The notes below the pieces were generated by a model, which saw only the letters and a program-made list of their open reading frames with translations, searched no databases and had not been told where the DNA came from. From Microcaldota archaeon (GTDB lineage Archaea > Micrarchaeota > Micrarchaeia > Micrarchaeales > CABMGC01): a stretch of 48,382 nucleotides of DNA. Every line of letters starts with the position of its first letter. The first letter of the stretch is position 1. The stretch lies in the NCBI GenBank assembly GCA_021797995.1, contig JAJZYR010000007.1:1-48382 (forward strand), read 5' to 3'. This document shows, in pieces, positions 6,775 to 47,677 of this stretch. The position numbers and the translations under genes are program-made.

Positions 6775-8292
6775 ATGTTTTATGACAAGAGAAAGGGCAT
6801 AGTGATATTCACAATACTTGTGACAGTCGCCCTGCTGAACAGCTTCTTCATAACCCCGTTGACGATAAGCGATTCGGATTTCTCGACATACATAATCGTC
6901 CCGCTCATGCTGCTGCCCCTCCTTGCGCTCTTTACGCTTAAGGAGCGGATAATTCCTGACGTGAGGAAAAGAGATCTTCTCACCGGCGCTGCCGTCTTCG
7001 CACTGCTGGTCCTGATAACGATATACCTGAGGGTAAACCTCTCGTATCTATTTACGTCGCTCCACATCGACATGCTCCTCTTCCCCATGATGATTGCAGC
7101 ACTTGCCATACCCCTCTTCGGGGTCAGAAACATAAGCCGGTTCAAGGTGCTGTCCGTATACGCGCTGTTTGCCTCACCTGTGGTGCTCCTGTGGCTCAGT
7201 TCCGTAAACTCCGGGTTTGTCATAGGAAACACGCTTGTTATCTACGGGATAGTGGGGCACATCTTCCATAATGTGGGATATACCGCGCCGATAACGATAA
7301 CGGCAAACAGTTATTCGGTGGGCATAGGGAGCACATGCGTGGGAATAGGGGTTCTGGTCGGGATCGTCATGTTCCTCGTCCCTGTGGCATACCTGTATGA
7401 CGGAAGGCTGTCGAGGAAGGCGCTCTGGGTTGCAAGCGGCTTTGCTCTCGTCCTCGGGCTGAATATACTGAGGATGCTGGGAATAGCAATAGCGTGGTTC
7501 GCATACGGCCCTAGCAATGCAATACTTACCATACACCTGTTCGCAGGCGTGCTGCTCTTCTATCTCTCGATAATAATAATGCTCCTGCTGTCGGGAAGGT
7601 TCGGGCTGAGGTTTCCCGCGGAAGGGAAGGGGGGGAAGGCGCGGATCAGGATGGGCGGCGTTTACAAGGCAGGCATAGCCCTGGCAATAGCCTTTACGAT
7701 AATATATTTCATGCTGTCATCGGACTATCCTTCAGTGAGTATCATATCCCCCCTGGTCCTGTACAACCAGGTGGGCTTCAATGCGTCTAACATAAATCCG
7801 GTATCAGGAGCGGCGGTGAACCAGAGCGGGTTGGGCGAGGTCGCCATACAGAATAATGAGGAGAACAATCTCTATATAGAGTTGACAAATTCAACATTCA
7901 ACGCATCGGCGCCGATAGCAATGCTCGTCATGCCTAAGAGCTCCGGAGAGACTGCTGCGCTGCTCAGAAACAGCACGCTGCTCGGAAGCATGACGTTCCT
8001 TGGCAACGCCGGCAATGTCCAGACGGTGTACATGGTTGCATCGGCGGGCCGCAGCCTGCTCCTTTATGCGGAAACAATCCCATACGTGTTTCCCAACGGC
8101 ACCTCAACCGTAGCGAGCATATATGCAGTGCTTCCGGCCAACAGGACCTCTTCAGGCATAAGGTGCTACCAGAGCTACGACGTCCCGTATACTGCCTTAA
8201 TAAACGCGTTGAATCCAGATGCGTATAATGCAACTGCGAACAGCAGGATAATAGGTGCTTACTGCATAGTCAGGAGATTGGTGAGTCGATGA
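6775..8292 (+). CDS. Archaeosortase/exosortase-family membrane protein
   Basis: 505 residues. The first about 310 residues hold eight or more hydrophobic helices; the rest is a secreted-looking domain after a final helix (about 297-315). The three catalytic-type residues of the exosortase/archaeosortase family are in order: Cys188 in GSTCVGIG, Arg233 in LNILRMLG, and His254 in LTIHLFAG. These enzymes cut C-terminal sorting signals such as PGF-CTERM and attach surface proteins to lipid. The C-terminal about 190-residue extracellular domain is an addition to the minimal enzyme. Its stop overlaps the next start (ATGA), so it is translationally coupled to the Nudix-UDG gene. Targets are not known; the surface proteins in this window are candidates. 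Confidence 0.8.
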   Translation: MFYDKRKGIVIFTILVTVALLNSFFITPLTISDSDFSTYIIVPLMLLPLLALFTLKERIIPDVRKRDLLTGAAVFALLVLITIYLRVNLSYLFTSLHIDMLLFPMMIAALAIPLFGVRNISRFKVLSVYALFASPVVLLWLSSVNSGFVIGNTLVIYGIVGHIFHNVGYTAPITITANSYSVGIGSTCVGIGVLVGIVMFLVPVAYLYDGRLSRKALWVASGFALVLGLNILRMLGIAIAWFAYGPSNAILTIHLFAGVLLFYLSIIIMLLLSGRFGLRFPAEGKGGKARIRMGGVYKAGIALAIAFTIIYFMLSSDYPSVSIISPLVLYNQVGFNASNINPVSGAAVNQSGLGEVAIQNNEENNLYIELTNSTFNASAPIAMLVMPKSSGETAALLRNSTLLGSMTFLGNAGNVQTVYMVASAGRSLLLYAETIPYVFPNGTSTVASIYAVLPANRTSSGIRCYQSYDVPYTALINALNPDAYNATANSRIIGAYCIVRRLVSR

Positions 8293-9242
8293 GGTTCCAG
8301 CACTCGGCAGGCGCGTTTGTCTACAAGCTGGTTGGTAAAAGGGTGCTCTTCCTGCTGCTGATCCGGCCCAATGGCGGATATGACCTCCCAAAAGGGCACA
8401 TAGAAGAAGGCGAGTCCGACTATGGGGCTGCAAGGCGCGAGATAAGGGAAGAGACCGGGCTTAGGCCAGACTTCCTCCCGCACTTCAGCATGGTAACGGA
8501 GTATTCCTTCAAGGAAAGGGGCCACACGGCACACAAGACTGTAAGGTTCTTCATAGCAAAGGCAGATCCAAAGCAGAAGGTCAGGATATCGCATGAGCAC
8601 GCATCTTATAAATGGCTTGGATATCAAGAAGCTGCGAGCAGCCTGGAATATAGGGACCTGCTTAGGATACTGTCTGCGGTATCGGATTACATAAGCAGGT
8701 GGGAGAGGATGAATACCCTCAATACCGAGTATGCACGGCTCCCTAAAAAGGCCGGGGCCTGGAGCCTGAGCAGGAGGCATGTGGCTGGCGAGGGGCTGCT
8801 GAACGCGAAGGTCATGCTGCTTGGCCAGGCCCCCGGAAGGAACGAAGACATGATGCGGCGCCCGTTCATAGGAAGGAGCGGAAAGCTCCTTGACAACATC
8901 CTTGGGAAGAGCGGGATAAGGAGAGAGGAGGCGTACATAACCAGCGTCGTGCAGTTCTTTCCCGAGGGAAATAGGATGCCGACACGGGAAGAGATAAAGG
9001 CATGCAAGCCCTTCCTCCTCGAGCAGGTCGAGATAATAAAGCCTAAGTTCATCGTGCTCCTTGGGAACCTAGCGAGCGGCTCAATGCTTGATATAAGCGA
9101 GGTGAAGACGAACCACGGCAGGATAATTGAGAGAAACGGGGCAACGTACATGATAACATTCCATCCCGCTGCGGCGCTCAGGTCAACTACAACGCTGAAG
9201 CTGATGGAAAAAGACTTCGAAAAGCTGGGCAGGCTCCTCTAA
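8289..9242 (+). CDS. Nudix hydrolase fused to family 4-like uracil-DNA glycosylase
   Basis: 317 residues. Residues 1-135 are a Nudix domain with a complete Nudix box (G36...E41...REIREETG to residue 57), closest in look to diadenosine-polyphosphate/MutT types. Residues 145-317 resemble family 4 uracil-DNA glycosylases: GQAPGRNED at 179-187, RPFIGRSGKLLD, KPKFIVLLGN, and HPAAALR at 292-298. Family 4 enzymes normally hold a [4Fe-4S] cluster through four Cys; here only Cys239 remains and the motif usually written C-x-P-P-G-N-R reads FFPEGNR, so the cluster must be absent. The fusion would couple nucleotide-pool cleaning with base excision, an inference. Start overlaps the archaeosortase stop. 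Confidence 0.85.
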   Translation: MRFQHSAGAFVYKLVGKRVLFLLLIRPNGGYDLPKGHIEEGESDYGAARREIREETGLRPDFLPHFSMVTEYSFKERGHTAHKTVRFFIAKADPKQKVRISHEHASYKWLGYQEAASSLEYRDLLRILSAVSDYISRWERMNTLNTEYARLPKKAGAWSLSRRHVAGEGLLNAKVMLLGQAPGRNEDMMRRPFIGRSGKLLDNILGKSGIRREEAYITSVVQFFPEGNRMPTREEIKACKPFLLEQVEIIKPKFIVLLGNLASGSMLDISEVKTNHGRIIERNGATYMITFHPAAALRSTTTLKLMEKDFEKLGRLL

Positions 9243-9296
9243 CGCAGGCCGGAGGGGCATAATTTATATACTACCAACAACCACTTTTATCCCATC

Positions 9297-9371
9297 GGGT
9301 CCGTAGCTCAGCCTGGTTAGAGCGTTCGACTGATAATCGAAAGGTCATGAGTTCAAATCTCACCGGGCCCA
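9297..9371 (+). tRNA. tRNA-Ile (GAT)
   Basis: Cloverleaf: acceptor GGGTCCG/CGGGCCC (one T-G pair), anticodon stem TTCGA/TCGAA with loop CTGATAA (anticodon GAT), T arm TGAGTTCAAATCTCA, discriminator A, no encoded CCA, no intron. A TATA-like AATTTATATA at 9261-9270 lies about 30 bp upstream. Confidence 0.95.
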
Positions 9372-9736
9372 TTTACAAAAATCGACGACAAGACAGGGGT
9401 TCAAATCCAGATTTTGGGCCTGATTCTGGAAGCACAGAAAAGGCTGGTTCGGGGTGCGTTTTCAAAGGCTTCCGAAGGCCTGAAAAACAGGGTTCGGGGT
9501 TGGATTTCTCCACGTTTGCGTGTCACCATCCAATGATTAAGGTCGTTGGAGACTGTCACGTATAAACAGATGCAGATATCTAAACACGCAGATCGTTGTG
9601 AACGTATAAAAAGATGGGCGGTAATAGATAATTAATCTAGAGTATTACTCTGGCCTTGCGGCTCTTGCCGCTAGATGCCATTAGATCGGAGAAATTGGTA
9701 TAGCAGGATGTCATCCGCTTGAGGAGGTCGCAATCA
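9372..9736. other. Gene-free interval with tRNA trailer motif and tandem promoters
   Basis: No gene of normal size is seen. At +12 after the tRNA is CGACGACAAGACAGGG, matched at the same offset after tRNA-Leu. Further words CAGGGTTCGG (about 9487-9496) and GGATTTCTCC (about 9501-9510) also recur after tRNA-Leu in the same order. Two TATA-containing direct repeats (9558-9572, 9602-9616) precede a leader with a small hairpin (GCGGC-TCTT-GCCGC, about 9658-9671) and a possible 15-codon ORF at 9675-9722. Confidence 0.5.
9558..9616 (+). promoter_or_regulatory. Tandem TATA promoters upstream of homoserine dehydrogenase
   Basis: ACGTATAAACAGATG (9558-9572) and ACGTATAAAAAGATG (9602-9616) are near-identical 15-mers 44 bp apart. 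The second would start transcription near 9632, leaving a leader of about 100 nt before ATG 9737, long for this genome. Confidence 0.5.
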
Positions 9737-10861
9737 ATGGTGGAATCAGTATTCATAATCGGCGCAACGGGAAAGATCGGCAGCGAGCTGGCAAGGCAGA
9801 TAATCAGCAGCGGCGACACAGACTCAAGAAGGCACAGAAATCCGACAAGGATAGTCGGCGTGGCCTCAAGCAGCGGCTTTTTGTACGACGCCTCTGGAAT
9901 AAGCGATAGCGACGTGCTCGCCTTCTCCACAAAAAGAACCAAGGGCAGGGAGCATGCCGGGCTCGGCTCGCTCTTCGATTTTCTTGGCGGCATAGAGAAG
10001 CCTGTCAGGATAGTCGATGTTACCGCTTCGCCTGAGATGCTCTGGTTCCACAAGAGGATCATAAGCGAAACCTGCCATTCGATAGTTACCGCGAACAAGC
10101 TTCCGTTGGTGCTCAACTCGTTTGACGATTTCCAGCTCCTGACAGCCTCGCACGGCAGGTACGCTTACAGCTGTTCGGTCATGGCAGGGGCAGAGGCAGT
10201 TTCGTTTATGAGGGACATACCGGACTTAGGGGAGTCCTTTGTTGAGATTACAGGCTCATTCTCAGGGACGCTGGGATACGTGTCATCAGAGTTGGGGCGC
10301 GGAAGCCTGCTGTCCGAGGCGGTGCGAAAGGCGCTTGAGAAGGGATACACGGAACCGAACCCGTCGATAGATCTGAGCGGCAAGGATCTTGCATACAAGA
10401 TACTCACGCTCGCCAGGACAGCAGGGATGAGGGTGGACCTGGAGGAGATAAAGCTGACGCCGTTCGTACCAGATGAGTACCTGTCGTATGGCGATCCGGA
10501 GTTGCTGCTTGGCAGGCTAGGGGAGCTCGATTCGGCATTCGCAAGCCGCATTGCGCTGCTTAAGGGCAATGGAAAGGCGCTGAGATACGTTGCGAGGCTG
10601 TCTTGCGCTGAAAAGGGCGGCGTTCCGTCAGTCACCGTGGGCCTGGAGGAGCTCGAGGTAGCCCATCCGCTTGCGCAGCTTCAGGGCACCGCGAACATGA
10701 TAATAATAAGGGCGGGGCCGTACGGCGTCAACGGCAACCTTCCGTACATAATCGAAGCGCCAGGGGCAGGGATAGACATAACGGCAAGGAACATAAGGCG
10801 GGACCTGCTTAGCCAGATAGAGGACAGGCACTCCGCTCCGCCGGAACAGCCGCAGCCCTGA
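9737..10861 (+). CDS. hom: Homoserine dehydrogenase
   Basis: 374 residues. An NAD(P)-binding Rossmann motif (FIIGATGKIGSELARQI) opens the protein; the catalytic domain shows VTANKLPLV, GSFSGTLGYV and the family signature GYTEPNPSIDLSGKDLAYKI, and the C-terminus carries LQGTANMIII. The enzyme reduces aspartate semialdehyde to homoserine, the branch point to threonine and methionine. No regulatory ACT domain is present. A strong Shine-Dalgarno (GAGGAGGT) lies about 8 nt before ATG 9737, deciding against TTG 9719. No other threonine-pathway gene is adjacent, so pathway completeness cannot be judged here. Confidence 0.9.
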   Translation: MVESVFIIGATGKIGSELARQIISSGDTDSRRHRNPTRIVGVASSSGFLYDASGISDSDVLAFSTKRTKGREHAGLGSLFDFLGGIEKPVRIVDVTASPEMLWFHKRIISETCHSIVTANKLPLVLNSFDDFQLLTASHGRYAYSCSVMAGAEAVSFMRDIPDLGESFVEITGSFSGTLGYVSSELGRGSLLSEAVRKALEKGYTEPNPSIDLSGKDLAYKILTLARTAGMRVDLEEIKLTPFVPDEYLSYGDPELLLGRLGELDSAFASRIALLKGNGKALRYVARLSCAEKGGVPSVTVGLEELEVAHPLAQLQGTANMIIIRAGPYGVNGNLPYIIEAPGAGIDITARNIRRDLLSQIEDRHSAPPEQPQP

Positions 10862-10879
10862 TGCGGCATAGCAAATGCC

Positions 10880-11956
10880 ATGCAGGTTGCATATATGGTA
10901 AACACAAAATTCATGGCTCTCGGTGCGACGGCGCTTAGGAGCAACCTTGTGCATTTAAGGCACCCTTACAAACTTACCTTCTCAATCACATACAGATGCC
11001 AGAGCAGATGCATTACGTGCAATATATGGCAGATGAAGCCAGTAAACGAGCTTACCATTGAGGAGATCAGGGAGTTTGCCATGAAGAACAGCTACTTCAG
11101 GTGGATAGAGATAACAGGAGGGGAGCCGTTCCTAAGGGGCGATGTAGTCGAGATAGTAAGGGCATTCAGGGAGAGCTGCAAAGGCCTGTACCTACTCACG
11201 ATGCCTACAAATTCGCTATGCGGCACTGCCGCGGAGCTCAGGAAGATAGAGGAAATACTAAGCCTCGGGGTGCCAAAGGTCTCGATAACGGTAAGCCTTG
11301 ACGGATACAGGGAGCTCCATGACAGGATCCGCGGAATCCCGGGAAATTTTGACAGGGCCATTGCGATCTTCAAAGGGCTGAAGGAGCTCCGGAAGAGGCA
11401 CAGGAACCTCTTCATGGTCTTCGGATATACGATGAGCAGGTTCAACCAGGGCCAGTTCGCAAGGACATTCGCCGAGGTGCGGAAGGAGATACCAGACCTG
11501 GCGTACAACGACTTTCATCTCAACGCAGGCCAGGTATCTGACATATACTACAGCAACTTGGATCTGGATCTCGGCGTCTCAAAGGAGACGGCTGCAGGCG
11601 AGGTAAGGGAATTCCTGAAGATGCGGAAACCGCAGGTCGGCGCGATTCCCGCCATAGAAGGCGTCTTTCTAAGAAAGCTCCTCGAGTACATAAAGACCGG
11701 GAAGACGCCTATAAGGAGCAGGAGCCTTGACGCATCGCTGTTCCTTGACAGTTATGGTAACGTATTTCCGTCGATCATGTGGGGCAGGAGAATAGGGAGC
11801 ATACGCAGCACCAACTACTCGCTTGAGCCGATCTGGCACAGCAGGGAGGCCGAAGAGGTAAGGACCCTGATAAAGGCAGGCAAGGAACCGGACAGCTGGA
11901 CCGCATGCGAGGCCTACCAGGCGATAGTGGGAAACGTGAGCAGCTTTATTCTTTGA
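10880..11956 (+). CDS. Radical SAM protein
   Basis: 358 residues. The [4Fe-4S]/SAM motif C-x3-C-x2-C is in YRCQSRCITCNIW (about residues 39-48), followed by the GGEP motif (ITGGEPFLR) and a TIM-barrel-like SLDG segment. The C-terminal third has DASLFLDSYGNVFPSIMWGRRIGSI, a pattern common in SPASM/twitch-type radical SAM proteins, but only a lone Cys (TACEAYQ) is left, so a second cluster is doubtful. The substrate is unknown. The nearest upstream gene is homoserine dehydrogenase, 18 bp away, so they may be cotranscribed. An internal ATG at 10895 is an alternative start. Confidence 0.8.
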   Translation: MQVAYMVNTKFMALGATALRSNLVHLRHPYKLTFSITYRCQSRCITCNIWQMKPVNELTIEEIREFAMKNSYFRWIEITGGEPFLRGDVVEIVRAFRESCKGLYLLTMPTNSLCGTAAELRKIEEILSLGVPKVSITVSLDGYRELHDRIRGIPGNFDRAIAIFKGLKELRKRHRNLFMVFGYTMSRFNQGQFARTFAEVRKEIPDLAYNDFHLNAGQVSDIYYSNLDLDLGVSKETAAGEVREFLKMRKPQVGAIPAIEGVFLRKLLEYIKTGKTPIRSRSLDASLFLDSYGNVFPSIMWGRRIGSIRSTNYSLEPIWHSREAEEVRTLIKAGKEPDSWTACEAYQAIVGNVSSFIL

Positions 11957-43054: not shown

Positions 43055-43141
43055 TGCAGGGGTGGCAGAGCCTGGCCAAATGCGACGGGCTTAGGACCCG
43101 TTTCCGTAGAGGATGCGAGAGTTCAAATCTCTCCCCCTGCA
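43055..43141 (+). tRNA. tRNA-Leu (TAG)
   Basis: 87 nt. Acceptor GCAGGGG/CCCCTGC, anticodon stem ACGGG/CCCGT with loop CTTAGGA (anticodon TAG), long variable arm (TTCCGTAGAGGATGC) as in class II tRNAs, T stem GAGAG/CTCTC with loop TTCAAAT, discriminator A. TATA-like TTTTAAA at 43034-43040. No intron. Its 3' 26 bases (43116-43141) recur at 47050-47075, so it is the integration target of the downstream island. Confidence 0.95.
43116..43141 (+). repeat. attL-like: 3' end of tRNA-Leu
   Basis: 26 bases within the tRNA (T arm plus acceptor end) identical to 47050-47075 except one position (C at 43134, A at 47068). This is the classic archaeal arrangement in which an element inserts at a tRNA 3' end and leaves the gene intact. 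Confidence 0.85.
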
Positions 43142-43301
43142 AATCCAATTTGCGGCGACAAAGCAGGGTTCGGAAATCCGGAACTGGAATCACCAAGGAA
43201 GGAAGATTTCGAGGATTTCTCCGAAACCCTCAAGCAGGTGTCCATGAACATATCATGGCACCAATTACAAAAGCTACAATCAGTTTTACATAAAACTCAG
43301 A

Positions 43302-43532
43302 TCAAGAGGTTTGCAGGTAAGAGGCCGATACGACTTCCTCTTTTATAGAAGGCGGTATCGGCTCGTTGTGCTTCTTAAGACTAGCCAGATAACCGGCTAT
43401 GGCGTCCTTGACGTTCTCTATGGCCTCTTTTCTAGTTTTGCCATCAGAAACGCATCCGGGCAGCTGCGGTACGGTAGCTACGAATACGCCGTCTTCGTCC
43501 TGCTCTATTTCAACCCTGAAATATCTTCTCAT
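43302..43532 (-). CDS. hicB: HicB-like antitoxin (orphan)
   Basis: 76 residues. YFRVEIEQDEDGVFVATVPQLPGCVSDGKTRKEAIENVKDAI is the HicB/UPF0150 partial RNase H-like fold, followed by a helical end. HicB normally neutralises the mRNase HicA; no HicA-sized gene is adjacent, so it is an orphan antitoxin or a repressor. A palindrome GTATACTATAC lies 11 bp upstream of the start (43544-43554), a likely self-binding site. It lies in the tRNA-Leu island. Confidence 0.82.
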   Translation of the reverse strand: MRRYFRVEIEQDEDGVFVATVPQLPGCVSDGKTRKEAIENVKDAIAGYLASLKKHNEPIPPSIKEEVVSASYLQTS

Positions 43533-43543
43533 ATCCGTTCACT

Positions 43544-43554
43544 GTATACTATAC
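43544..43554. promoter_or_regulatory. Palindrome upstream of the HicB-like gene
   Basis: GTATACTATAC (arms GTATA/TATAC around one base), 11 bp before ATG 43532, with a minus-strand TATA-like ATTTAAAT at about 43565-43572. Probable autoregulatory operator. Confidence 0.5.
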
Positions 43555-43593
43555 AACCCAAGCTATTTAAATTTAGAAGGCGTCACGGCCGTA

Positions 43594-43737
43594 ACTAAAG
43601 ACCTCTGGGCGACTAAAGACCCTAAGCCCAAAAGGCCTTTAGTAGGCTCTCGACGACAACCTAAAGACCCCTCCGTTTTCACGAGGGGCTTCTAACCATC
43701 AATAATACTGTGTACCTCTTAAGTTGAGGTCTTTAGT
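43594..43737. repeat. 144-bp segment with 12-bp terminal inverted repeats
   Basis: ACTAAAGACCTC (43594-43605) and GAGGTCTTTAGT (43726-43737) are perfect inverted repeats. Inside are further copies of CTAAAGACC (near 43612 and 43661), an inverted CCTTTAGTAGG (near 43637), and a hairpin CCCCTC/GAGGGG (43668-43688). It looks like a small non-autonomous insertion or an IS end rather than a gene. Confidence 0.5.
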
Positions 43738-43990
43738 AAGCCTCCGCTGCCTCACGCCCTTCACCTGTTCTGTGCAGGTTCGGGCGTGCCGAACTTCGTT
43801 CGGACGGCGGCTACTGCTACTAGACCCAACTGGCAAGGCTGCTTCTGCCCCAGCCCAGAAGCAGCCGTAGAGGTTCCTTCAAGGCTGGGATAACCGCTGC
43901 TAGGTTGCTAGCTTGCAGACCGTTGGGCCATTAGCCCATGTAAATCCAAGGGATGAACGTGCTGGCGTAGCTTAGGACTAAGGTTTCCTA
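43738..43990 (-). pseudogene. Hairpin-rich stretch, possible remnant of an IS200/IS605-type tnpB end
   Basis: Strong hairpins: CACGCCC/GGGCGTG (43753-43759/43782-43788), CCGAAC/GTTCGG (43789-43803), and perfect 11-bp GGCTGCTTCTG/CAGAAGCAGCC (43837-43847/43856-43866). On the minus strand a frame ends in ...VRTKFGTPEPAQNR then stop, reminiscent of TnpB C-terminal tails, but an in-frame stop interrupts it shortly upstream and no zinc-ribbon or catalytic motif remains. It could instead be a structured RNA. The TnpB reading is a weak inference. Confidence 0.3.
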
Positions 43991-44026
43991 AAAAGCTATG
44001 TTTATGCATGCGGTGCGTCCAAAGAA

Positions 44027-44055
44027 TTATAAATATGATTGGCTATTCATATACT
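44027..44055 (+). promoter_or_regulatory. Promoter and probable ArsR operator of the mercury operon
   Basis: TATA box TTATAAAT at 44027-44034, 25 bp before ATG 44056, predicts a leaderless message. The inverted repeat ATATGA (44033-44038)/TCATAT (44047-44052) lies between the TATA box and the start site, where a bound ArsR repressor would block transcription. Confidence 0.6.
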
Positions 44056-44568
44056 ATGGCAAAAGTCAATGGAGCAATAAGCGCGATTCGCCGTGTGTTC
44101 AATTCTAAGGCATACTCTGTAGCATTTTTATTGATAGTCATACTGTCCTTTCTTGGCTACTCTTATCTGCTTTCTAGCTCTTCGTTAAACCTCCCGCTTC
44201 CAAAAATAGCCTTTGGGTTAAACATCTATTCATTAATTGTATCAATATCGATCAGTCTGCTTCTCGCACTCTCTTTGGTGATGAACACGTTCGCGTTTGT
44301 AAATGGAGCTGCACTGAGCGGAAGAGTGAGCTTAGGTGCTATTATAGCAGCAATAATCCCCAGTGGTCTTTGCTGTACGTCTGTGATACCGGCCATCTTG
44401 ACCGCCTTCGGCGCATCCACTGCTACAGTAATAGGGGTTACGGGTAAACTCCAGGGTCCCTTTGCTACTTATGAAACGCTGTTCATTACCCTCTCGATAG
44501 GTCTTCTCTTGCTAAGCGTTTTGTTGGCTTCAAGGAACATTGCCAAATGCTGCACGGTGAAGAAATGA
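44056..44568 (+). CDS. MerT-like membrane protein with two vicinal Cys pairs
   Basis: 170 residues from ATG 44056 (leaderless, TATA 25 bp upstream; the frame extends back to 44008). Four hydrophobic helices (about 20-40, 52-79, 92-120, 140-159). A Cys pair Cys106-Cys107 lies in the third helix (IPSGLCCTSVIPAILTAFG) and a second pair Cys165-Cys166 at the cytosolic-looking end (AKCCTVKK). MerT and MerF mercury importers also use one vicinal pair in a membrane helix and another on the cytosolic side to hand Hg(II) to MerA. Overall sequence is not a standard MerT, so the role rests on the motif plus the operon. Its stop overlaps the next start (ATGA). Confidence 0.65.
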   Translation: MAKVNGAISAIRRVFNSKAYSVAFLLIVILSFLGYSYLLSSSSLNLPLPKIAFGLNIYSLIVSISISLLLALSLVMNTFAFVNGAALSGRVSLGAIIAAIIPSGLCCTSVIPAILTAFGASTATVIGVTGKLQGPFATYETLFITLSIGLLLLSVLLASRNIAKCCTVKK

Positions 44569-45122
44569 AAAAGAACGTAGTAGTCGGAATCGTAGCGCTC
44601 GCTGCCGTGGTGACGATAGCACTATTGTTACTGAAATTTAATTCGAACGGTGGAAATGCAGGACCTCAGAATATTACTGTTGGGTCGATAACCCCCGATT
44701 ATGGCTTCCGTCTAGCCAATGGTTCGTATACGAACTTGTCTGCATACAAAGGGCATGTTGTAGTCCTCTGGTTCGTGGCCACTTGGTGCCCGTCATGCGC
44801 ACAGGGTAACGAAGAGATAAACCAGAACTATCAATTTTTCGAGCGGCGCGGGATTAAGATTATTGAACTGGAGCTTTACAATGACTTGGGGTACAGCGGG
44901 CCACCCATATCGAGCTTCGTGAGTTCATATGCTCCGGGCGCATACTCTAACGATACAATAATCCCGGCACTTGCGGGTTATAACATGACGGCAGTTTATG
45001 ATCCAAAAGGCTATCTGGATATATATTACCTTATCTCCGAAAACGGCACTGTATTGTATATAAACGGCTCACCATCATCAACTCTTGGGCAGCTAGAGGA
45101 AGCCATAAACAGCTCTTTATAG
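44565..45122 (+). CDS. Membrane-anchored thioredoxin-like protein (TlpA/ResA type)
   Basis: 185 residues from ATG 44565, overlapping the previous stop by 4 bp. One N-terminal helix (about 5-23) anchors an extracytoplasmic thioredoxin fold. The active site is WCPSC (Cys75, Cys78) in VVVLWFVATWCPSCAQGNEE, and the C-terminal part (YLISENGTVLYINGS) has the usual strands. Placed between a MerT-like protein and MerA, it could bind or deliver external Hg(II), as MerP does in bacteria, or keep the importer thiols reduced. The role is inferred; the fold is clear. Confidence 0.8.
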   Translation: MKKNVVVGIVALAAVVTIALLLLKFNSNGGNAGPQNITVGSITPDYGFRLANGSYTNLSAYKGHVVVLWFVATWCPSCAQGNEEINQNYQFFERRGIKIIELELYNDLGYSGPPISSFVSSYAPGAYSNDTIIPALAGYNMTAVYDPKGYLDIYYLISENGTVLYINGSPSSTLGQLEEAINSSL

Positions 45123-45129
45123 TGGTTGA

Positions 45130-45462
45130 ATGAACAAACTCGAGTTCAAAGCATTCTTCTATGCGATAGGCGATTATAGTAGGTTCAGTATATTGAGCTC
45201 TCTGGCAAAAAGGGATCTGAACGTAAGCGAAATAACGGCTATGACCGGAATCGAACAGAGCAATGTCTCTCACCACATGCATTGCCTTTTGAATTGCGGG
45301 TTTGTAAACGTGAGAAATGATGGTAACAAGCACATTTATGCAATCAACCCTGAAGTGAGGCAAACAGTAGATAGCATAATAAGCCACATAGCGTCTTACA
45401 AAAAACAAATAATATCCTGCGATATAGCAAACAAGGCGTATATTTCCAAGGTGATTAAATAG
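45130..45462 (+). CDS. merR: ArsR/SmtB-family metalloregulator of the mercury operon
   Basis: 110 residues. The winged helix-turn-helix is typical: AIGDYSRFSILSSLAKRDLNVSEITAMTGIEQSNVSHHMHCLLNCGFVNVRNDGNKHIYAI. Cys52 and Cys56 sit just after the recognition helix and Cys97 lies in the C-terminal helix; three thiols would suit Hg(II), which likes two or three Cys ligands. Archaeal mercury operons (known from Sulfolobus) use an ArsR-type repressor named MerR; the role here is inferred from that and from the operator upstream. The symbol reflects that usage, not homology to bacterial MerR. Its stop overlaps the ATA of merA. Confidence 0.8.
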   Translation: MNKLEFKAFFYAIGDYSRFSILSSLAKRDLNVSEITAMTGIEQSNVSHHMHCLLNCGFVNVRNDGNKHIYAINPEVRQTVDSIISHIASYKKQIISCDIANKAYISKVIK

Positions 45463-46874
45463 AAGAATTTGAGTATGTAATACTGGGGCAGGGGTCTGCC
45501 GCTTTCGCAGCAGCAATAAAAGCGAATAGCATCGGAATCAAAACGGCCATGATAGGTAGCGGCGCCACTAAGGGCGCGGTACTTGGAGGCACTTGCATAA
45601 ATGTGGGATGTGTGCCTAGCAAGAGGCTCATAACCGTGAGCACATTTATAGAGGAGCTTCAGAAAAGGCGATACGCAGGATTAGATTACACCATTGGAAA
45701 GCCGGACTATGCAAAAATAATCAAAGAGAAGAACAAGATCGTAGACGACCTTAGGGATGAAAAATACAAGAATGTATTATCGGAGATGGAAAACGTAACT
45801 TTCATGGACGGGATAGGAACGTTCATGGATGCAAACACAGTCATGGCTGGGACGAAGGAGATAAGGTCAAAACACATGCTTATAGCCACCGGCGCAAGAG
45901 CTATGGTACCACGAATAAAAGGGATAGAAAAAGTAGACTATCTCACAAATGAAGAAGCTCTATCGATAGACAAGCTCCCAGAATCGCTCATAGTTGTAGG
46001 TGGTAGAGCATTGGGGCTAGAATTTGCCCAGCTATTTGCTGGGTTAGGCGTCAGGGTTACCTTGCTACAAAGGAGCGAGAGGATAATACCGAACTGGGAG
46101 CCGGAAGTGAGCAGCCATCTGGCCGAATACCTGAAGGGGAGCGGAGTTGATATAGTAACTAATGCAACTTTAGTCGAGATAGACTCTAGGAACGGATTAA
46201 AGAGTGTAACGGCCAGAGTCAAGGAAACTGAAACCATTTTTGATGCAGAAGAGATACTTTTTGCTACCGGGAGAACTGCGAACGTAGAAAAGCTGGACCT
46301 GAATGCTGCCGGCGTCCAGCTTACCGAGAGAAACTTCATCAAAGTTGATAAGACGCTCAAGACGACCGCTGGAAACATATACGCAGCCGGTGACGTTACC
46401 GGAGAACCTATGCTTGAAACCTTGGCCGCGAAGGAAGGCAACACGGCAACCTCTAACATTTTTGAGAATGCTAACAAGATAATAAATATGAATGAAGTGC
46501 CGAGCGCTATATTTACTTACCCGGAGGCTGCAATGGTCGGCATGACCGAAGAGCAGGTGATAGAAAACAGGATAAAATGCAGTTGCAGCCCAGTGGAATT
46601 TAAGTTTGTGGCAAAAGCAGCAATAATCGGGGATACGCGAGGGCTTGCGAAAATAGTGATAGACAGCAAAACCAAGAGAATACTCGGAGTGCACATCCTG
46701 GCGCCACACGCAGCAGACCTCATACACGAAGGCGTGTTGGCAGTTAAATTCGGCCTAACAATAGATGACATAATAGACACAGTACATGTCTTTCCAACGC
46801 TTAGTGAGGGGCTGAAGCTAGCGGCTCAGGCTTTCTACGAAGACGTTTCCAAGCTTAGTTGCTGCACAGTATAG
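45459..46874 (+). CDS. merA: Mercuric reductase MerA
   Basis: 471 residues if read from ATA 45459. The N-terminal FAD fold (YVILGQGSAAFAAAIKANS), active-site pair GGTCINVGCVPSKRL (Cys46, Cys51), NADPH site VVGGRALGLEFAQLFAGLGV, FAD site IYAAGDVTGEP and the C-terminal pair KLSCCTV (Cys468, Cys469) are all present. The last pair distinguishes MerA from dihydrolipoamide dehydrogenase. It reduces Hg(II) to volatile Hg(0) with NADPH. No N-terminal NmerA domain. The first ATG (45549) would delete the FAD-binding strand, and no ATG, GTG or TTG lies before it in frame; ATA 45459, overlapping the regulator stop as ATAG, is the likely start. Confidence 0.9.
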   Translation: MEEFEYVILGQGSAAFAAAIKANSIGIKTAMIGSGATKGAVLGGTCINVGCVPSKRLITVSTFIEELQKRRYAGLDYTIGKPDYAKIIKEKNKIVDDLRDEKYKNVLSEMENVTFMDGIGTFMDANTVMAGTKEIRSKHMLIATGARAMVPRIKGIEKVDYLTNEEALSIDKLPESLIVVGGRALGLEFAQLFAGLGVRVTLLQRSERIIPNWEPEVSSHLAEYLKGSGVDIVTNATLVEIDSRNGLKSVTARVKETETIFDAEEILFATGRTANVEKLDLNAAGVQLTERNFIKVDKTLKTTAGNIYAAGDVTGEPMLETLAAKEGNTATSNIFENANKIINMNEVPSAIFTYPEAAMVGMTEEQVIENRIKCSCSPVEFKFVAKAAIIGDTRGLAKIVIDSKTKRILGVHILAPHAADLIHEGVLAVKFGLTIDDIIDTVHVFPTLSEGLKLAAQAFYEDVSKLSCCTV

Positions 46875-47095
46875 TCGGTCCAAATCCCGGGAAATTTGAA
46901 CCGTTTCTGCTTATATACCTTGCTCGGCCATTATTCATGGTTCAGATGAACCTGCTTGGGCTTAGAATCTTGCGTTGTTTTGGTGTGGAATATGGCTATG
47001 GATATGGATGTGAAACAGCTAGGAAACGCTCTCAGGCCCATAGCTGGCTCGAGAGTTCAAATCTCTCACCCTGCATAATATGAAGGGGTGATAAG
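46875..47095. other. Island right end and start-proximal region of the hydrolase gene
   Basis: No gene is seen. A TATA-like TATATACC lies at about 46912-46919. The second tRNA-Leu end copy is at 47050-47075. GAAGGGGTGAT at about 47081-47091 provides a Shine-Dalgarno (GGGGTG) for ATG 47096. Confidence 0.5.
47050..47075 (+). repeat. attR-like: second copy of the tRNA-Leu 3' end
   Basis: 26 bases matching 43116-43141 with one difference (A at 47068). No acceptor 5' strand or anticodon arm can be folded upstream, so this is a fragment, not a tRNA gene. It marks the right end of the mercury island. Confidence 0.85.
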
Positions 47096-47677
47096 ATGAC
47101 AACGGTATTCATCATTCACGGTGCGTACGGGAATCCAGAAGAGAACTGGTTCCTTTGGTTGAAGGAGAAGCTGACCGAGATGGGCTGCGTGGTCTTCACG
47201 CCAACGTTCCCTACCCCAAAGGACCAGAGCCTGGACAACTGGCTCAAGGCTCTCAAGCCGTTCGAGGGATATATCGACGAGGACACCATATTTGTCGGCC
47301 ATTCGCTCGGGTCAACGTTCATACTCAGCGTTCTTGAGAAGCTCAGCAAGAAGGTGAAGGGCACATTCCTTGTTGCCGGGTTCATAGGGCCTGTCAGAGA
47401 CTCAAGAGACACGATGAACAGGATAAACAGCACGTTTTGCGACAGGAACTTCAAGTGGGACAAGATCAAGGGCAACTGCGGCAAGTTCGTCCTGATAAAC
47501 TCGGACAACGACCCGTACGTTCCACTCGAGATTGCGGAGAACGTATCAAGGCCGCTCGGCGTGCCGCTTACCATAATAAGAGATGCAGGTCATTTCAACA
47601 AGGACTCTGGATATACGCGGTTCCCAGAGCTGCTCGATATGATAGAGGACCTCATCAGCTCCGGGCAAGTAAAGTAG
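47096..47677 (+). CDS. Alpha/beta hydrolase of the RBBP9/YdeN type
   Basis: 193 residues, the size of this subfamily. Nucleophile Ser in FVGHSLGSTFIL, Asp in NSDNDPYVP and His in DAGHFNKDSGYT complete the Ser-Asp-His triad; the N-terminus TTVFIIHGAYGNPEENW holds the oxyanion-hole HG. Serine hydrolases of this group have no firmly known physiological substrate in archaea. The gene lies just outside the tRNA-Leu island and its codon use is core-like. A GGGGTG Shine-Dalgarno is upstream. Confidence 0.88.
   Translation: MTTVFIIHGAYGNPEENWFLWLKEKLTEMGCVVFTPTFPTPKDQSLDNWLKALKPFEGYIDEDTIFVGHSLGSTFILSVLEKLSKKVKGTFLVAGFIGPVRDSRDTMNRINSTFCDRNFKWDKIKGNCGKFVLINSDNDPYVPLEIAENVSRPLGVPLTIIRDAGHFNKDSGYTRFPELLDMIEDLISSGQVK

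Follow-up and report, generated by a model that had tools for sequence, protein, structure and literature searches.

A mercury-resistance island of Micrarchaeota as a probable, decayed representative of a small integrative element family

The stretch analysed here, referred to as the window, comprises the 48,382 nucleotides of contig JAJZYR010000007.1 from a Microcaldota archaeon (assembly GCA_021797995.1), and carries a four-gene mercury-resistance (mer) operon on a 3.9 kb island between a tRNA-Leu(TAG) gene and a displaced repeat of the 3' end of that gene. With a probability of about 0.88, this island belongs, as a now crippled copy carrying mer, to a family of small integrative elements found in Micrarchaeota. 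The sequence itself shows the island boundaries, the empty site in a relative, the split integrase gene and its frame restored in relatives, a deletion, the identity of the mercuric reductase MerA and its transfer between families. The original prediction, made from the letters alone, had described a mer operon on a small tRNA-Leu-integrated island in a probable DPANN archaeon; the latter agrees with 22 of the 24 named relatives with this MerA being labelled Candidatus Micrarchaeota. It had overlooked the integrase remnant, an orphan hicB gene, an RNA-like segment and the integrase fragment on the right side.

Integration target, boundaries and empty site

The tRNA-Leu 3' end (43116-43141) recurs as a direct repeat at 47050-47075 with 25 of 26 bases identical, as had been predicted; the best other match to these 26 bases in the window reaches 18, and shuffled sequence gives 16-19. 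The island has a G+C content of 46.1%, compared to 52.6% in the rest of the window, and lies below all 196 windows of the same size, which bears out its predicted A+T richness. The empty tRNA-Leu site proposed as a check was found in a genome of the same genus, G009, where serS, tRNA-Leu(TAG), a serine hydrolase gene and RFC are consecutive and the island is absent. When joined at 43141/47076, the window flanks align to G009 gap-free across the junction, and the boundary can indeed be read to the base, as originally claimed. The base after the repeat in G009 (T) equals that of the right copy in the window and not that of the left; thus, the right copy is the displaced chromosomal end and the left copy arrived with the element. 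Both marks of a tRNA-integrated genomic island were therefore found, the 3' end of the tRNA being directly repeated and a relative having the site unoccupied. The parts of the target site and of the element backbone are as follows.

43055..43142, +: tRNA-Leu with anticodon TAG, the integration target (ARAGORN, Rfam)
43116-43141, +: left attachment core within the tRNA-Leu 3' end (repeat comparison)
43142..43324, +: intC remnant at the left end of the element, the first 61 codons after the crossover (...KEDFEDFSETLKQVSMNISWHQLQKLQSVLHKTQIKRFAGKR), ending before every catalytic residue
43302..43532, -: orphan hicB antitoxin gene (PF15919), its last codons coming from across the deletion joint
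43324..43325, no strand: deletion joint, where the integrase body and hicA are gone
43837..43866, +: hairpin GGCTGCTTCTG...CAGAAGCAGCC, with compensatory changes in other elements (alignment)
43897..43977, +: structured RNA-like segment of the element backbone, with three helices (strong covariation)
46893..47049, +: right end of the element, with a degenerate palindrome, a TATA box (46910-46918) and intN
46992..47075, +: intN, the first 28 integrase codons (MAMDMDVKQLGNALRPIAGSRVQISHPA), in frame with intC through the attachment site
47050..47075, +: right attachment site, the displaced tRNA-Leu 3' end (repeat and G009 comparison)
47096..47677, +: chromosomal serine hydrolase gene (PF06821), adjoining tRNA-Leu in the empty site of G009

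A family of elements with a split integrase

Both ends of the island recur elsewhere. The 182 bases at 43143-43324, together with some 157 bases that precede the right repeat (46893-47049), are mostly 75-91% identical to sequences in many genomes of the order; these matching ends occur in both families, f1 and f2, beside tRNA-Leu genes and mostly with other cargo. At the intC left end, the DNA is 77-91% identical to the left ends of elements from many genomes, with the frame open across the junction, and right ends at 77-88% identity were found in about 25 genomes. Intact elements are ordered as tRNA-Leu, integrase, small genes (some hicA/hicB-like), the RNA-like segment, cargo, right end and attachment site (att). 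The complete counterpart of the decayed window copy is found in G140, with the tRNA, an intact intC, the RNA segment, the same four mer genes, the right end and att. Other cargo includes a PD-(D/E)XK nuclease, an AbiEii toxin, NosD-like and HATPase proteins, a heavy-metal P-type ATPase and a dienelactone hydrolase. The elements measure 2-9 kb, no replication gene was seen in them, and tandem copies are present in G052 and G022. At a further locus (L317, G040:C1, oriented 7124-11760), the tRNA-Leu 3' end is repeated several times in succession (at about 8.9, 10.2 and 11.7 kb), which suggests that elements accreted in tandem at one tRNA gene.

Regarding the integrase, its left-end frame runs back into the tRNA without interruption, and no start is obvious there. 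When the element ends were joined in silico, eight Leu-type elements with intact ends each gave a single frame of 315-326 residues, whose ATG precedes the junction by 27-28 codons; a shorter frame resulted in G083, and the degenerate copies of G043, G052:C6 and G022 did not yield such a frame. A TATA box and a palindrome lie upstream of the restored ATG. A search with this integrase, in which up to eight relatives were scored per genome, covered 301 genomes of the phylum and had hits in 108, located 3' of tRNA-Leu, -Glu, -Gln, -Val, -Pro, -Ala and -Arg genes and with their catalytic residues conserved. Elements at tRNA-Leu, -Glu, -Gln, -Val and -Pro have the tRNA end repeated at a distance of 1.8 to 9 kb; in the latter four types, joining likewise restores the frame, with the ATG 28 codons before the tRNA end. 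In the G040 copy, which has several repeats, a restored frame was not clearly seen.

Alternatively, the integrase could start at an internal codon of intC, the gene not being split and the open frame into the right end being a by-product of the tRNA sequence. An ATG does exist within the Leu-family intC (SMNVSWHQ), and another archaeal type (pNOB8) has an intact gene beside the tRNA. This possibility is nevertheless improbable, as the junction frame is open and the ATG lies 27-28 codons upstream for five tRNA types (Leu, Glu, Gln, Val and Pro), the frames on both sides shift together in G001 and G052:C1, the TATA box and palindrome of the right end point into intN, and the residues before the internal ATG are conserved. 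In the split-gene arrangement, the attachment site lies inside the integrase frame, and circularisation restores that frame in relatives. Judged from its sequence, this is the SSV-type ("suicidal") design, with a putatively active integrase.

The recombinase domain PF00589 was detected in all eight representatives of the integrase subfamilies; PF16795 was not found in these eight up to E = 10, in a search that had no positive control for it. The matches among solved structures in the PDB are XerA-like recombinases, with no SSV1 integrase among them up to E = 10. Since only PF00589 was detected and the structural matches are XerA-like, an independent origin of this suicidal integrase is plausible, not proven.

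The copy in the window has decayed. About 0.93 kb is deleted at 43324..43325 relative to G079, G146 and G091, which retain it, and the window base after 43324 corresponds to the sequence beyond the integrase and hicA in these three genomes (hicA being read in G079). The deletion removed all the catalytic residues of the integrase together with hicA, while the segment next to it (43325-43560) keeps 97% DNA identity to the same three genomes. Despite the loss of the integrase body, intN, att and intC still share one frame in the window. As this body and hicA are lost, the window copy is probably fixed.

The RNA-like segment forms a further part of the element backbone. Its three-helix fold shows 62 double-sided changes among 392 cells, compared to 20.2 in shuffles, none of which was as high, and to 4-19 in slid versions. 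A model of the segment finds it in 53 of 164 genomes; of the 78 matches examined, 39 share the strand of a family integrase and follow it within 4 kb downstream, mostly at 0.2-1.3 kb, a count based on an incomplete integrase list. An Rfam search of 43143-44060 returned a chance match only, the segment having no Rfam entry. It possibly acts as a regulatory RNA or as a folded single strand used in mobility.

From this organisation we infer integrase activity, by the following route. In the circular form, the attachment site would lie inside the integrase gene, where 28 codons from an element-borne promoter end in tRNA-like sequence, followed by the catalytic body. The integrase would recombine this site with the 3' end of tRNA-Leu(TAG), so that integration would restore the tRNA and split the integrase gene, leaving intN at the right end and intC beside the tRNA. 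As the gene is cut by integration, exit of the element would need full-length integrase in trans.

The mer operon and its spread

The cargo of the island consists of four genes.

44035..44568 (alternative start 44059), +: membrane protein with an invariant CC pair, a putative Hg(II) carrier (no known family)
44565..45122, +: membrane-anchored thioredoxin-like protein with WCPSC (AhpC-TSA, ResA/TlpA-like), in ATGA overlap with the preceding gene
45130..45462, +: ArsR/SmtB regulator (NF033788 above cut-off)
45459..46874, +: MerA mercuric reductase (TIGR02053 above cut-off), with an ATA start overlapping the arsR stop (ATAG)

MerA scores 542.8 bits against the TIGR02053 equivalog (cut-off 454.5). 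The redox C-x4-C (CINVGC) and the C-terminal vicinal cysteines (SCC) are present, as originally predicted, in the window protein and in all homologs compared. The protein could instead be a dihydrolipoamide dehydrogenase or another disulfide reductase, as these share its flavoprotein fold and it reaches 375.6 bits with the lipoamide dehydrogenase model. That score is, however, under the 408.8 cut-off of the model, whereas the MerA model is exceeded; the C-terminal CC is found in every MerA homolog compared and is absent from the paralogs; and the closest solved structures are mercuric reductases. A MerA tree had been proposed as a check, with a position among dihydrolipoamide dehydrogenases counting against the prediction; in the tree obtained, the window protein groups with known MerA, separate from the dihydrolipoamide-dehydrogenase-like paralogs of the same genomes. 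A disulfide reductase other than MerA is thus extremely unlikely, and the window protein is by its sequence a genuine mercuric reductase with a putative Hg(II)-reducing function.

Its gene appears to start with ATA. The start lies upstream of the first ATG, and in most of the compared arsR-merA loci the ATA of ATAG is the sole codon that separates the FAD motif from the in-frame stop upstream of it; most merA loci without arsR directly upstream have an ATG start. Standard gene calling would place the start at 45549, by which the FAD-binding motif would be lost. The ATAG overlap is kept in arsR-merA loci of more than 15 genera and is preceded in the window (45459-45462) by AAGGTGAT. A -1 frameshift from arsR into merA was also considered and set aside, re-initiation fitting better given the conserved ATAG overlap with the arsR stop and the GGTGAT upstream of it in the window.

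As to the other proteins, the start of the membrane protein at 44035 is set by the MIGYSYIM conserved in relatives, and Cys105-Cys106, at the end of a hydrophobic stretch, is invariant in 19 of 19 homologs; a vicinal cysteine pair in a membrane helix is a trait of MerT as well. The "MerT-like" label of the original prediction has the support of neither Pfam nor NCBIfam models and derives solely from the membrane nature and the invariant CC pair of the protein: none of the 19 homologs matches MerT in Pfam up to E = 10, nor was there an NCBIfam match. Membership in MerT or in any other Pfam family was not found. The predicted structure (mean predicted local distance difference test, pLDDT, 68) had no counterpart among solved structures at E <= 0.001. 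The predicted thioredoxin and ArsR regulator between the repeats both held, the former as a thioredoxin-like protein. ArsR conserves Cys52, Cys56 and Cys97 in 32 of 32 homologs and scores 32.9 with the CmtR model, below its cut-off of 150. The spacing of these cysteines equals that of Cys57, Cys61 and Cys102 of the Cd/Pb sensor CmtR, whose alpha4C site has two cysteines four apart in the recognition helix and one near the C-terminus; this suggests the metal site and serves as a lead only.

From the protein families and the gene order, we infer a mercury function and roles for the two non-MerA cargo proteins. Binding of Hg(II) to Cys52, Cys56 and Cys97 of the ArsR repressor would release the operon; inward transfer of Hg(II) would fall to the CC membrane protein and the extracytoplasmic thioredoxin-like protein, and its reduction to Hg(0) with NADPH to MerA.

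MerA was found in 56 of the 164 genomes of the order (E <= 1e-100). Its presence in Micrarchaeota is not new, since 22 homologs were already included in the survey of Christakis et al. 2021 (PMC8261052). The novelty that the original prediction saw in an archaeal mer operon on a tRNA-targeted island therefore holds for the vehicle but not for mer in this phylum: what is new is a tRNA-targeting element family with a split integrase. The MerA of the window is 95% identical to that of G052, a genome of another family, and the operon DNA 91.5%, while serS is only 58% identical; the nearest MerA proteins of the same genus show 71-73% identity, and grouping all MerA of the genus in one clade is rejected (approximately unbiased test, p-AU 4e-8). 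These comparisons show that MerA was transferred between families. In addition, mer is followed by the right end in G140 and G083, by its first bases in G052 and by an att remnant in G149. In G078, mer lies in an element at tRNA-Val, with tRNA-Val(CAC) upstream of it and, downstream, a right end of divergent sequence and the tRNA-Val 3' end; related integrases adjoin mer in G035 (tRNA-Ala), G129 (tRNA-Arg) and G073 (tRNA-Glu). At mer loci by tRNA-Val (G027), tRNA-Glu(CTC), tRNA-Asn, tRNA-Glu(TTC) and tRNA-Ala, no tRNA repeats were found in the stretches examined, so these loci are not claimed as bounded elements.

A second MerA clade, 47-50% identical to the window protein, is very similar across families (L104, L103, L348-L353) and occurs in G002, G035, G085, G094, G129, G114, G093 and G116. 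In G129 and G035 it stands beside related integrases at tRNA-Arg(TCG) and tRNA-Ala(CGC), respectively. The clade represents a second travelling mer cassette.

The operon could also be an old, vertically inherited resident of the interval between serS, tRNA-Leu and RFC, around or beside which an unrelated element with matching ends was inserted later. Genomes of other genera (G031, G079 and G020) have mer in this interval, near tRNA-Leu and with no right-hand repeat after it, and in G079 mer lies just outside a mer-free element. Against such residence, the interval of the same-genus G009 is empty, G003 has no mer near tRNA-Leu and carries it beside tRNA-Glu, the genus clade of MerA is rejected with the nearest MerA in another family, and mer abuts the right end in G140 and G083 (truncated in G052), making this explanation very unlikely. 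The original prediction had named mer genes at the same locus without a repeated tRNA end as a refuting case, and that case does occur in G031, G079 and G020; the island reading stands nevertheless, given that the site is empty in a genome of the same genus, that the element ends match and that G140 has a complete mer element.

Several observations weigh against assigning the island to the element family. Decay or another arrival route is needed to explain mer in the three genomes just mentioned, and the G052:C22 copy, which does not lie at a tRNA, retains no more than the first bases of the right end. In the window, the two ends need not stem from one insertion, as homologous recombination between tandem elements could have swapped the cargo. 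Moreover, no intact integrase was found in the source genome, whose only other copy of the family (C10) is incomplete, its integrase, next to tRNA-Leu(CAG), missing the C-terminal catalytic residues. With the genome 94.6% complete, a helper integrase is possible elsewhere in it. The C10 copy itself (G000:C10, L223 190-3391) is a second, divergent element at tRNA-Leu(CAG), in which a YHS-domain P-type ATPase comes after the short integrase.

Significance and relation to known systems

Taken jointly, the observations could describe a large family of Micrarchaeota elements with suicidal integrases, of XerA-like origin independent of SSV, pTN3 and pT26-2, using at least five and probably seven types of tRNA, invariably with 28 integrase codons ahead of the tRNA end, with an undescribed structured RNA in the backbone, and acting as a main route for metal-resistance and defence genes between families. 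For this wider reading we would give even odds. In the literature on integrases and mobile elements of Micrarchaeota and DPANN, where subscription journals were thinly covered, no mention of the element family was found. If true, a DPANN family that lacks the marker domain, covers many tRNA specificities and keeps to one 28-codon geometry throughout would provide a second case for the question of why elements destroy their own integrase. The element would also be a concrete vehicle of gene flow for genomes of about 1 Mb or less, on which mercury resistance moves between families, and a family with such varied cargo would help to explain the gain of metal resistance in reduced genomes such as that of this acid-mine archaeon. 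The covarying RNA segment adds a further testable component.

Tycheposons of marine bacteria are likewise tRNA-targeted cargo elements with tyrosine recombinases in streamlined genomes, a likeness of general description. They are not known to have a split integrase. The term is in use in PMC10872708.

Self-splitting integrases are regarded in a 2021 review as an archaeal peculiarity of single origin, the SSV-type (suicidal, type I) integrases of SSV1, pTN3 and pT26-2 carrying PF16795 (Phage_integr_3) in all three families (PMC8371274); the text of this review has no mention of DPANN or Micrarchaeota. As in those systems, attP lies within the gene of a tyrosine recombinase, and integration at a tRNA 3' end gives intN and intC. 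The present elements differ in having PF00589 without detected PF16795, XerA-like solved relatives, an intN of only 28 codons and a size of 2-9 kb with no replication gene seen. Cryptic integrated elements of Thaumarchaeota, one of which has an SSV1-like split integrase (PMC6563490), are similarly small archaeal integrase-plus-cargo elements with short att repeats; they belong to another phylum and have another integrase, whereas here the ends, the split gene and the RNA segment are conserved across many tRNA specificities. Compared to known mer operons (TIGR02053 MerA; PMC8261052), the MerA core and the expected Hg(II) reduction are shared. However, no member of MerT, MerP or MerC was recognised, their place being taken by the CC membrane and thioredoxin-like proteins, the regulator is of the ArsR type, and the operon is carried on an archaeal element with a suicidal integrase.

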